Assembly (NCBI GenBank): GCA_019118245.1
Contig: DWZJ01000022.1
Coordinates: forward strand, 1-64,000
Length of the DNA stretch: 64,000 nt
Origin: Candidatus Oscillibacter excrementigallinarum
GTDB taxonomy: Bacteria; Bacillota; Clostridia; Oscillospirales; Oscillospiraceae
Direction of reading: 5' to 3'
Shown: one piece after another, positions 31,406-63,126 of the stretch
Numbering within the stretch: position 1 is the first letter of the stretch
Layout: every line of letters starts with the position of its first letter
Translations under genes and position numbers: made by a program
Notes under the pieces: model-generated
Databases searched by the model: none
What the model saw: only the letters and a program-made list of their open reading frames with translations
Told to the model about the DNA's origin: nothing

Positions 31406-31461
31406 TTTACACAGACTTTACATAGAATTGGTGTCGGATTTTACTTGGGGCTGTTTATACT
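31406..31461 (+). promoter_or_regulatory. Pho-box promoter of pst operon
   Basis: TTTACA (31406-31411) and TTTACA (31417-31422) are direct repeats 11 bp apart, with a third TTTACT at 31440. This matches the TT(A/C/T)A(C/T)A tandem PhoP boxes of Firmicutes. A -10 TATACT is at 31456-31461 without a good -35, as expected of an activator-dependent promoter. It would be controlled by the PhoP/PhoR pair at the operon end. Confidence 0.75.
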
Positions 31462-36521: not shown

Positions 36522-36587
36522 GCGGCCGGAGCGGCCGCCCCTCCGCCCTTCCAGTGGGGCGGAGAGACTGAACTTGGAGGGATGACT

Positions 36588-37256
36588 GTGATCTATCTGC
36601 TGGAGGATGACGACAGTATCCGGGATTTTGTGATCTACACCCTGAACAGCCAGGGCATGGAGGCCAAGGGCTTCCCGCTGCCCTCCCTGTTCTGGCAGGC
36701 CGTGGGGGAGCAGCTGCCCTCCCTGGTGCTGCTGGACATCATGCTGCCGGAGGAGGACGGCCTCGCCGTGCTGAAAAAGCTCCGCGCCACGCCCCGCACC
36801 GCCAAGCTGCCGGTGATCATGCTGACGGCCAAGAGCACGGAGTACGACAAGGTGGTGGGCCTGGACGGCGGCGCCGACGACTATGTGGCCAAGCCCTTCG
36901 GCATGATGGAGCTGCTCTCCCGCATCCGGGCGCTGCTGCGGCGGACGGAGACGGAGAACGGCATCCTCCGCTGCGGTATCCTGGAGGTGGATCCGGGCCA
37001 GCACATCGTCCGGGTCCGGGGCCAGGAGACCACCCTGACCCAGAAGGAGTTTGAGGTGCTGTGCCTGCTGCTGCGGAATCCGGGCCAGGTGCTCTCCCGG
37101 GAGCAGCTGATCGAAAACGTCTGGGGCTACGCCTTCACCGGCGAGAGCCGGACCGTGGACGTCCATGTGCGGACCCTCCGCCAGAAGCTGGGGGAGGCCG
37201 GGGCGTACATCGAGACGGTCCGGGGCTACGGCTATAAAATCAGCCCTGTGAGCTGA
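36588..37256 (+). CDS. phoP: OmpR-family response regulator PhoP/PhoB
   Basis: A 222-residue response regulator. The receiver has LLEDDDSIRDF, phospho-acceptor D50 in VLLDIMLPEEDG and K in DYVAKPFG. The C-terminal winged helix ends RTVDVHVRTLRQKLGEAGAYIETVRGYGYKI. The GTG at 36588 (MIYLLEDDD) is preferred to the ATG at 36582 because GGAGG lies 7 nt before it. Adjacent phoR and the upstream pst genes identify it as the phosphate regulator, likely binding the TTTACA repeats before pstS. Confidence 0.93.
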   Translation: MIYLLEDDDSIRDFVIYTLNSQGMEAKGFPLPSLFWQAVGEQLPSLVLLDIMLPEEDGLAVLKKLRATPRTAKLPVIMLTAKSTEYDKVVGLDGGADDYVAKPFGMMELLSRIRALLRRTETENGILRCGILEVDPGQHIVRVRGQETTLTQKEFEVLCLLLRNPGQVLSREQLIENVWGYAFTGESRTVDVHVRTLRQKLGEAGAYIETVRGYGYKISPVS

Positions 37257-60467: not shown

Positions 60468-61838
60468 ATGTATAACGATGAACACAACCTGTACCATTAC
60501 ACCTACCGGAAGGACGGCAGCGAGACGGACGCACACTCCGCCCCGCAGGGTGAGCCGCTGCAACCCCAATCCAGCGGGCCCCAGCAGCCCGTGCAGGAGA
60601 TGAAGCCTGTGAAGAAGAATCGCATCGGACTGAAGGTAACGGCCCTGGCGCTGTGCTGTGCCCTGCTGGGCGGCGCCGTGGGCGGCGGAGTCGCCTGGGG
60701 CGTGAGCAACAGCTCCGGCGGGACGTCGGTCAATGTCAGCGGCCGCACCGTCAGCCAGGTGTCCCTGAAGACCGTGGATGGCAAGACGGAGATGAGCGAC
60801 GCGGAGGTCTATGCGGCCAACGTCAACAGTGTGGTCTCCATCAACGTCACCGGCACCAGCGGCTACAACTTCTTCGGCCAGCCGGTGCAGTCGGCCTCCT
60901 CCGGATCCGGATTCGTGCTGACCAGCGACGGCTACATCGTCACCAACTACCACGTGGTGGAGAACGCGGAGACGGTAAAGGTCACCATGTACAACGGCGA
61001 CGAGTATGACGCACAGTACGTGGGCGGCGATGAGGACTACGACATCGCCGTCATCAAGATCGAGGCCACGGACCTGCCCGCCGTCACCCTGGGCAACAGC
61101 GAGAATCTGAACGTGGGCGACCATGTGCTGGCCATCGGCAACCCCCTGGGCGATCTGACGTTTTCCATGAGCGGCGGCATGGTCTCCAGCGTGAACCGCA
61201 CCATCAATGTGGACGGCACTCCCTTCAACATGATCCAGACCGATACCTCCATCAACCCCGGCAACTCCGGCGGCCCGCTGCTGAACAGCTACGGCGAAGT
61301 GGTGGGCATCGTGTCCGCCAAGTACTCCAGCTACGGTACCTCCGGCGAAAGCGTGGAGGGCTTGGGCTTCGCCATCCCCATCAATGACGTGATCAGCATG
61401 ATCCAGGATATCATGACCAACGGCTATGTGAGCAACAAGGCCTATCTGGGCGCCACCATCGGCACCCTGACCTCCAGCATGGCCCAGCAGTACCGCTATG
61501 ACATCAGCCAGGGCGCCTTCGTCTATTCTGTGGAGGACGGCAGCCCGGCGGCCCAGGCGGGGTTGCAGCTGGGTGACGTGATCACCGCCATCGACGGCAC
61601 GGAGATCGCCTCCCTGGACGATCTGACCGCCGCCAAGAAGTCCTATTCCGCCGGCGATACCTCCACGCTGACCGTCTATCGCCAGGGTGAGACCGTCACG
61701 CTGGAGTTGACCTGGGGCACGGCGCCCGCTGAGACCACCCAGACCGATGCACAGCAGGATACGCAGAGCAGCGGCGGCCAGAACGGCGGCAACGGATACA
61801 CCAACCCCTACGATCTCTTTGAGTACTTCTTCGGCTGA
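60468..61838 (+). CDS. HtrA/DegP-like membrane-anchored serine protease
   Basis: A 456-residue trypsin-like protease with a cytosolic N terminus (1-52), one helix (about 54-75, VTALALCCALLGGAVGGGVAWGV), the protease domain with catalytic His in NYHVVEN, Asp in DYDIAVIK and Ser in NPGNSGGPL, and a PDZ domain (about 330-420, GAFVYSVEDGSPAAQAGLQLGDVI). The Gln-rich tail ends YDLFEYFFG. It degrades or refolds damaged exported proteins, as HtrA/HtrB of Bacillus do. AGGAGGAATCG precedes the ATG. The 209-bp upstream gap has no convincing promoter hexamers. Confidence 0.95.
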   Translation: MYNDEHNLYHYTYRKDGSETDAHSAPQGEPLQPQSSGPQQPVQEMKPVKKNRIGLKVTALALCCALLGGAVGGGVAWGVSNSSGGTSVNVSGRTVSQVSLKTVDGKTEMSDAEVYAANVNSVVSINVTGTSGYNFFGQPVQSASSGSGFVLTSDGYIVTNYHVVENAETVKVTMYNGDEYDAQYVGGDEDYDIAVIKIEATDLPAVTLGNSENLNVGDHVLAIGNPLGDLTFSMSGGMVSSVNRTINVDGTPFNMIQTDTSINPGNSGGPLLNSYGEVVGIVSAKYSSYGTSGESVEGLGFAIPINDVISMIQDIMTNGYVSNKAYLGATIGTLTSSMAQQYRYDISQGAFVYSVEDGSPAAQAGLQLGDVITAIDGTEIASLDDLTAAKKSYSAGDTSTLTVYRQGETVTLELTWGTAPAETTQTDAQQDTQSSGGQNGGNGYTNPYDLFEYFFG

Positions 61839-62066: not shown

Positions 62067-62192
62067 TTATTTGGTGGAGGACTCCTCCTGATGATCTTTC
62101 TGCTTCTCCTTGCGGGCCTTGATGGAACTGTTGATGCAGCCCAGGGCCAGGACAACGATGATCGCAAGCATGACATAGCCGCCGGTTTCCAT
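62067..62192 (-). CDS. 41-residue single-pass membrane protein
   Basis: A short ORF missed by the ORF track. ATG at 62192 is preceded by a strong AAAAAAGGAGGT about 10 nt upstream. The product METGGYVMLAIIVVLALGCINSSIKARK... has one helix (about 6-24) and a highly charged C-terminal tail (KARKEKQKDHQEESSTK), so it is a small membrane protein with a probable cytosolic tail. Function unknown. Four 11-bp direct repeats lie about 70 bp upstream. The opposite-strand ORF here also has a weak ribosome site, but composition and Shine-Dalgarno favour the minus strand. Confidence 0.68.
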   Translation of the reverse strand: METGGYVMLAIIVVLALGCINSSIKARKEKQKDHQEESSTK

Positions 62193-62259
62193 GGATCTGA
62201 GACCTCCTTTTTTATAAAGCATAATAAATTTATGAGTTGTTAATAAAGAAGATTGATTA

Positions 62260-62303
62260 TTAACGACTTCTTAGCGATATCTTAACGATATCTTAACGCC
62301 AAC
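62260..62303. repeat. Four 11-bp direct repeats, putative response-regulator sites
   Basis: Four consecutive units: TTAACGACTTC, TTAGCGATATC, TTAACGATATC, TTAACGCCAAC. The core TTARCG recurs every 11 bp, about one helical turn, as in tandem half-sites of OmpR/PhoB-family regulators. They lie upstream of the 41-residue membrane protein on the minus strand and downstream of the Crp/Fnr gene terminator. Confidence 0.65.
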
Positions 62304-62328
62304 TGGCAAAAAAAGCAAGCCCATTCGG

Positions 62329-62373: not shown

Positions 62374-63024
62374 TCAATCCAGGAAGTAGCCCAGAAAATC
62401 AAAGACCTCCATCAGGCGCTGTTCGTCCAGGATCTCGATCCTGCGGTACGACTGGCGGAGGATGCCTGCCTCCCGAAACTGCTTGAGGATCCGGGTGACG
62501 GAGACCCGGCTCATGCTGGTGATGGCGGCGATCTGCTCATGGGTGTACGGAATGGAGGGACCGGAGCTGGCGCAGCAGATATGCAGGAAATAGGCCACCC
62601 GTTTGTCATCCTCCAGGAAGCGGGAGCAGCAGATGTAGTCAGAGAGCAGGGTGATTCGCCGCACGAAATGGGCCATCAGGTCTTGGGGCGGAAAGCCATA
62701 TTCCTGCCAGTGGGACCAGAACCGGTCCGCAGACAGCAGATATACTTCCGCCGGGGAGATGGCGGCCACGCTCACCATCACCTTCGGATGGTCGATTAGG
62801 GCGTTGCTGCCGAACAGTTCACCGGGGCCCAGATAGAACAGGGAGATCTCATCGCCGCCGGGCCCCAGGCAGAAGGTGCGCAGTTGCCCCTTTACCAGAA
62901 AGCCAGCCTGGGTGGACGGGGCGCCTTTCTCTTGCAGGACCTCTCCGGTATGATATTGACGCTTGACGCCATACTTCAAAAAAATCTCACGGGCATGAGG
63001 GCTGAGCTGAATGTCATCCGGCAT
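62374..63024 (-). CDS. Crp/Fnr-family transcriptional regulator
   Basis: A 216-residue regulator with an N-terminal cNMP-binding-like beta roll (HTGEVLQEKGAPSTQAGFLVKGQLRTFCLGPGGDEISLFYLGPGELFGSNAL) and C-terminal winged helix (THEQIAAITSMSRVSVTRILKQFREAGIL). A CC pair and other cysteines are present but no FNR-type N-terminal cluster. The ATG at 63024 is chosen; GAGAGGAG lies 12 nt upstream, a little far. It is divergent from the dehydrogenase at 63225 with a shared palindrome between them. Confidence 0.9.
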   Translation of the reverse strand: MPDDIQLSPHAREIFLKYGVKRQYHTGEVLQEKGAPSTQAGFLVKGQLRTFCLGPGGDEISLFYLGPGELFGSNALIDHPKVMVSVAAISPAEVYLLSADRFWSHWQEYGFPPQDLMAHFVRRITLLSDYICCSRFLEDDKRVAYFLHICCASSGPSIPYTHEQIAAITSMSRVSVTRILKQFREAGILRQSYRRIEILDEQRLMEVFDFLGYFLD

Positions 63025-63071
63025 AAATCCAAGACGCTCCTCTCCCAATAGAAGAATCAATATCCACAAAA

Positions 63072-63100
63072 ATACTAGCAGATTTTCTCCCAATCCGCAA
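63072..63100 (-). promoter_or_regulatory. Promoter of crp/fnr-family gene
   Basis: On the minus strand TTGCGG, a 17-bp spacer and TAGTAT, 48 bp before the ATG. Confidence 0.65.
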
Positions 63101-63106
63101 GAGAAC

Positions 63107-63126
63107 ATTGTAACAGCTGATACAAT
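63107..63126. promoter_or_regulatory. Crp/Fnr-type palindromic operator
   Basis: ATTGTAACAGCTGATACAAT: outer arms ATTGTA/TACAAT are perfect and the centre CAGCTG is palindromic. The TTGTAAC-N4-GATACAA pattern fits sites of Crp/Fnr-family factors such as HcpR. It lies between the regulator gene and the dehydrogenase it faces. Confidence 0.6.

Follow-up and report, generated by a model that had tools for sequence, protein, structure and literature searches.

A conserved small membrane protein gene

The window analyzed here is a 64,000-nucleotide stretch of a Candidatus Oscillibacter excrementigallinarum contig, and its minus strand carries a short ORF preceded by a Shine-Dalgarno sequence, a promoter, and an array of direct repeats (Table 1). 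The ORF (ATG at 62190-62192, stop codon at 62067-62069) codes for METGGYVMLAIIVVLALGCINSSIKARKEKQKDHQEESSTK, which has a single hydrophobic stretch (residues 4 to 20, mean KD 2.5) with a basic stretch behind it, in keeping with the one helix and charged tail described in an earlier note on this DNA.

Table 1. Features of the small-gene locus and its neighbors (window coordinates)
Feature	Position	Strand	Sequence, basis, or remark
htrA/degP-type serine protease, convergent neighbor	60468..61838	plus	Pfam/NCBIfam searches
Gene for 41-aa single-helix membrane protein, stop codon included	62067..62192	minus	coding conservation in the genus
Shine-Dalgarno sequence	62201..62210	minus	AAAGGAGGTC; GGAGG or GGAAGG at the same place in 14/14 orthologs
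Weak second half-site pair, C-D	62229..62245	minus	TATTAA-N5-CATAAA; position conserved; missed by the earlier note
Four 11-bp half-sites, putative KdpE-like operator	62255..62298	minus	CGTTAAGATAT/CGTTAAGATAT/CGCTAAGAAGT/CGTTAATAATC (TTARCG on the plus strand)
Repeat unit 1	62260	plus	TTAACGACTTC
Repeat unit 2	62271	plus	TTAGCGATATC
Repeat unit 3	62282	plus	TTAACGATATC
Repeat unit 4	62293	plus	TTAACGCCAAC
-10 box	62290..62295	minus	TAAGAT; overlaps the repeat unit that comes first in gene direction
-35 box	62313..62318	minus	TTGCTT; 17-bp spacing to the -10 box
Crp/Fnr-family regulator, upstream neighbor, not conserved	62374..63108	minus	Pfam/NCBIfam searches

A search of 60 related genomes yielded orthologs with 73, 67, and 41% identity to the window protein, and a profile search found the gene in 14 of 86 genomes of the genus at 24 to 93% identity; Candidatus Oscillibacter excrementavium and Ca. 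O. pullicola are among the relatives that carry it (five-row profile). The 14 proteins are 32 to 41 amino acids long and have in common M-x-x-G-G, a single hydrophobic stretch, and then a basic stretch. Synonymous divergence between family members (dS 0.16 to 1.2) well exceeds nonsynonymous divergence (dN 0.01 to 0.27) in all 10 pairs. The start codon, Shine-Dalgarno sequence, and single helix are all kept among orthologs, as is the order of promoter, operator, Shine-Dalgarno sequence, and ORF. Judged by its occurrence across the genus, by dN below dS, and by the conserved start and ribosome binding signal, the ORF is a real, unannotated gene. The repeats singled out together with it in the earlier note are likewise conserved in relatives, with half-sites in the leader at all 14 loci.

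When the profile was run against 300 genomes of the family, it returned the gene itself and two same-genus matches that we read as orthologs; outside the genus, the best match had an E value of 4.5e-4, and matches lay mostly within longer unrelated frames. The protein family appears so far to be confined to this genus. No Pfam or NCBIfam family scores above its cut-off for the small protein, and the FeoB-associated Cys-rich membrane proteins (PF12669) were considered and set aside, with one ortholog reaching 17.1 bits against a cut-off of 27 and the window protein unmatched. The convergent htrA gene adjoins the small gene in 12 of the 14 loci, but convergent order alone says little about HtrA as a functional partner. 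The Crp/Fnr-family regulator was rejected as a partner, as it adjoins the gene in only 5 of the 14.

Promoter and repeat array

All 14 leaders have TTG(C/T/A)(T/A)T and TA(A/T)NNT boxes separated by exactly 17 bp. The earlier note had placed four units of TTARCGAYWTC upstream of the gene; the first three fit this pattern, whereas the fourth agrees with it over six bases only, the first six. Nor do the repeats lie upstream of the promoter, as that description would have it: the fourth unit falls largely on the -10 box and the others lie downstream, in the probable 5' leader, all antiparallel to the gene. The three-unit repeat pattern has 0.00 copies expected in the window, and the 11-bp periodicity score was equalled in none of 1,000 dinucleotide shuffles. 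No second copy of the repeat occurs in the 2.4-Mb genome when up to two mismatches are allowed in the 16 specified bases. Strict patterns of this kind, which in the genome of the window find this locus only, had suggested that there is no regulon, a conclusion overturned by the promoter matrix and the spaced operator model described below. No Rfam family matches at the locus.

Ortholog leaders usually carry YGTWAA-type half-sites at positions 0/11/32/43, the middle step being 20 rather than 21 in three sequences, and the clade of the window has at least one extra 11-bp unit in front of these with helical phase kept. In the ortholog alignment the C-D pair follows at 20 to 21 bp from the half-site before it, with D poor in G022 and G141. 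Since the steps are 11 and 21 bp, all of the half-sites are expected on one face of the DNA.

A kinase operon with the same half-sites

Contig C108 of the same genome carries a DUF4118 kinase gene (C108:1122-2270), a gene for a KdpE-like regulator (C108:418-1149), and the start of cstA. The kinase is about 365 amino acids long, the only Pfam domains found in it are DUF4118, HisKA, and HATPase, and NCBIfam matches it best to the C-terminal part of KdpD; the regulator matches KdpE best, at 222 bits. We do not regard this as a true Kdp system, as the regulator is under the KdpE equivalog cut-off of 325 bits and the kinase is without the KdpD/Usp sensor domains. The kinase gene is preceded by TTAACG-N4-TTAGTG-N5-TTAACA-N10-TATAAT, and an equivalent half-site pair, typically TTAGCG-N5-TTAACG-N10/11-TATAAT, is present in the kinase promoters of 25 other genomes. 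Among the 30 kinase loci examined, the motif was not seen in four (G358, G348, G030, and G014).

A matrix was derived from the kinase/KdpE-like regulator operon promoters of these 25 genomes, leaving out that of the window, and was scanned over a small part of the genome of the window, the window included. Of 127,956 window positions, it ranks 62268-62290 first (22.3 bits) and 62279-62301 second (20.2 bits). The third-ranked position (10.9 bits) is at chance level (3.7 to 10.9 bits in five shuffled windows), and the fourth (9.5 bits) belongs to the small-gene array again, at its remaining unit. Elsewhere in this genome the matrix scores 28.3 bits at the kinase, 24.1 bits at a BcrAD/BadFG-type gene, and 17.3 bits at cstA. 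With its 17-bp core at a threshold of at least 11 bits, sites are found in all 14 of the small-gene loci (about 3 kb each), all of them within the leader and antiparallel to the gene; the operators of G380, G381, G141, and G022 score weakly with the kinase matrix (12.8 to 14.1 bits).

That a matrix made from kinase-operon promoters finds the operator points to the KdpE-like regulator encoded beside the DUF4118 kinase and cstA. The 6-bp direct half-sites at steps of about 11 bp, together with the same half-sites at the operon of the regulator itself, also favor the proposal that these are tandem OmpR/PhoB-family sites. The suspicion that the responsible two-component system differs from that acting at pstS gains support as well, in that the matrix picks out the operator and does not pick the pstS boxes. 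The latter (TTTACA-N5-TTTACA at 31409-31425) resemble a PHO box and are distinct from TTARCG, and the window also encodes a PhoB-like regulator (36582-37256). The PHO box of PhoB was rejected as an identity for the small-gene half-sites, which are unlike the boxes before pstS in this window.

The kinase is present in all 14 genomes with the small gene and in 54 of the 72 others (hypergeometric P of 0.027, uncorrected for relatedness). Its presence in those 54 genomes indicates that the system can do without the small protein, whose gene looks accessory.

Other sites of the motif

When an operator model was run over the 86 genomes, the only two matches in G402 (E<=0.5) besides the small-gene leaders lay upstream of two cstA paralogs, both of which adjoin a histidine kinase-response regulator pair. 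G023, G004, and G358 each have one further match, upstream of a cstA, a match in G031 is also upstream of a cstA, and those in G383 and G035 lie by coordinates just upstream of the kinase. In the genome of the window, cstA is preceded by TTAGCA-11-TTAATT-21-TTAACG; the codirectional reading was matched in none of 300 shuffles, and the opposite reading gave no signal. Codirectional sites occur in eight of nine cstA intergenic regions from genomes with the small gene and in two from genomes without it. In the cstA regions carrying sites, the best spacing was reached in 0 of 300 shuffles and the opposite orientation was without signal; G141 departs from the codirectional pattern. Both the kinase operon and cstA have their half-sites upstream of the -10 box and pointing at it.

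The BcrAD/BadFG-type gene (acyl-CoA dehydratase activase) is divergent from queH, and half-sites in the region between them point towards it. The form TTAACG/TTAACA-N5-TTAACA/TTTACA is present in this intergenic region in most of 24 genomes, that of the window included. This gene, whose product we take to be akin to plasmalogen synthase-type proteins, is possibly a further target of the regulator.

In other genera the operator model gave weak matches only (E values of 1.6e-4 to 0.02). One genome of another genus has repeated CGTTAAGAT-like half-sites before a gene resembling TrkA-type potassium uptake genes (G137:C1:1715273-1715331), a hint of KdpE-like ancestry. In G377, a tandem second small gene, MVSSGTVLVVLLVFLVLAEIFDAKRGDQQESRQP, has a similar promoter and operator (G377:C82:5675-5722); it was missed by the protein search, and the operator can thus reveal small proteins that homology misses. 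An operator-like pair in G380 (G380:C43:8110-8135) precedes a short gene that has a long-form cstA behind it, and the same operator-like site is found near a contig end in G031 (G031:C256:187-214). Outside the window, a 20.7-bit matrix match, TTAACAGAAATTTAATA, falls just after a TATACT box (G000:C9:79127), about 150 bp before a gene resembling the small subunit of a TRAP transporter.

Predicted regulation of the small gene

Taking together the coding conservation, the promoter, the operator architecture, and the identity of the half-sites with those of the kinase operon and cstA, we propose that the small gene is probably switched off by this relative of KdpE, a potassium-response regulator; it is encoded beside the carbon transporter gene cstA, which it seemingly controls. 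The gene would be transcribed from its own sigma-A-type promoter, and the KdpE-like regulator is predicted to bind the tandem TTARCG half-sites, which cover the -10 box plus ~45 bp at the start of the leader and share one helix face. Sites that overlap or follow the -10 box and run antiparallel to the gene predict repression where activation would be usual; for PhoP, repression is expected from boxes that overlap the -10 box or lie past the start (PMC3335776), and by analogy the bound, active regulator would block transcription here. In the opposite orientation and upstream of the -10 box, the same regulator would activate its own operon and cstA, and it would probably act at the BcrAD/BadFG-type gene too. 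The small protein would be made while the two-component system is off, and by the positive-inside rule it should have a short N terminus outside, one helix, and a basic C-terminal tail inside. We consider this proposal as a whole, with the active regulator repressing the small gene and activating its own operon and cstA, to be likely.

The earlier note had linked such proteins to modulation of a kinase or transporter, and our guess is that, when the system is uninduced, this one modulates either the kinase or CstA. In a more specific version, which we offer tentatively and at low confidence, it would hold the DUF4118 kinase or CstA inactive and be itself repressed by the activated regulator, a double-negative switch. 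If true, the output of this two-component system would repress its membrane inhibitor instead of inducing it, in a lineage in which CstA-type transport is served by a KdpDE-type system.

The regulator could instead activate the small gene, acting through downstream sites or at a promoter after the repeats, so that the protein is induced with cstA and either feeds back negatively in the manner of MgrB or serves as a subunit of CstA. As a small membrane protein of the PhoQ/PhoP regulon, MgrB does take part in a feedback loop (PMC8404706), and some species have space for a second promoter between the repeats and the start. We nonetheless find activation doubtful, as the last half-site in G031 and G380 ends a few bases before the Shine-Dalgarno sequence and leaves no room for a promoter, the 17-bp spacer of the upstream promoter is exact throughout the family, and the sites face the other way from those at which the regulator apparently activates.

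Repression by the KdpE-like protein also competes with binding of another OmpR-family regulator, such as the PhoB-like protein of the pst operon, a WalR-like protein, or one like RR_1586. Half-sites resemble one another across the OmpR family, in some orthologs the A half-site is TTTACA, as in the pstS boxes, and the Clostridioides difficile RR_1586 consensus, DRTTAAGNWWW (PMC6222199), nearly fits the minus-strand repeats. It is nevertheless improbable: the kinase-operon matrix prefers this operator over the whole window, pstS included, G rather than A is the final base of half-sites B and D in nearly all orthologs, and the cstA gene beside the KdpE-like regulator has the same 11/21 spacing.

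The promoter position puts the repeats inside the transcribed leader, where they might work as RNA, recognized by an RNA-binding protein, and not as DNA sites. This is very unlikely given that the kinase operon and cstA carry the same half-sites upstream of the -10 box, that the spacing tracks the DNA helical repeat, and that the Rfam search was without a match. That the ORF and the AT-rich repeats are both accidents is barely credible: the ORF is short and lies in an AT-rich intergenic stretch, but the 14 members, the excess of dS in every pair, the conserved order of elements, and a periodicity that shuffling did not reproduce all argue against it.

Repression by the KdpE-like regulator, if borne out, would link, on sequence evidence alone, an unannotated family of small membrane proteins to one particular two-component system. 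It would also give gut Oscillospiraceae a regulon comprising the kinase operon, cstA, the BcrAD/BadFG-type gene, and the small protein, in which one regulator and one motif are predicted to have opposite signs in opposite orientations. We found no report of KdpE- or DUF4118-type control of cstA in the open-access literature, nor a described cstA regulator for gut Oscillospiraceae, which is weak evidence of novelty.

Comparison with known systems

One close parallel is with KdpDE of Escherichia coli, whose KdpE binds the 6-bp direct repeats TTTATA and TTTACA, 5 bp apart (PMC3264566). Half-site spacing is alike, and the regulator and kinase have KdpE and the C-terminal part of KdpD as their best NCBIfam matches; in contrast to E. 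coli KdpDE and kdpFABC, the half-sites here are TTARCG and the adjacent target is cstA. The PHO boxes of PhoB and PhoP share the 11-bp tandem direct repeats and an OmpR/PhoB-type DNA-binding domain, but differ in half-site, and the matrix skips the boxes before pstS in the window. As with the MgrB-PhoQ type of modulator, a small single-helix membrane protein is predicted to belong to a two-component regulon, although this protein is not known to be related to them in sequence and would be repressed by the regulator and not induced. Finally, the E. coli BtsSR two-component system controls the CstA-family pyruvate transporter BtsT (PMC10653868), and a two-component system is likewise predicted to control a CstA-family transporter here; the E. 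coli system is of the LytS/LytTR type, whereas the one described here is of the OmpR family and KdpE-like.
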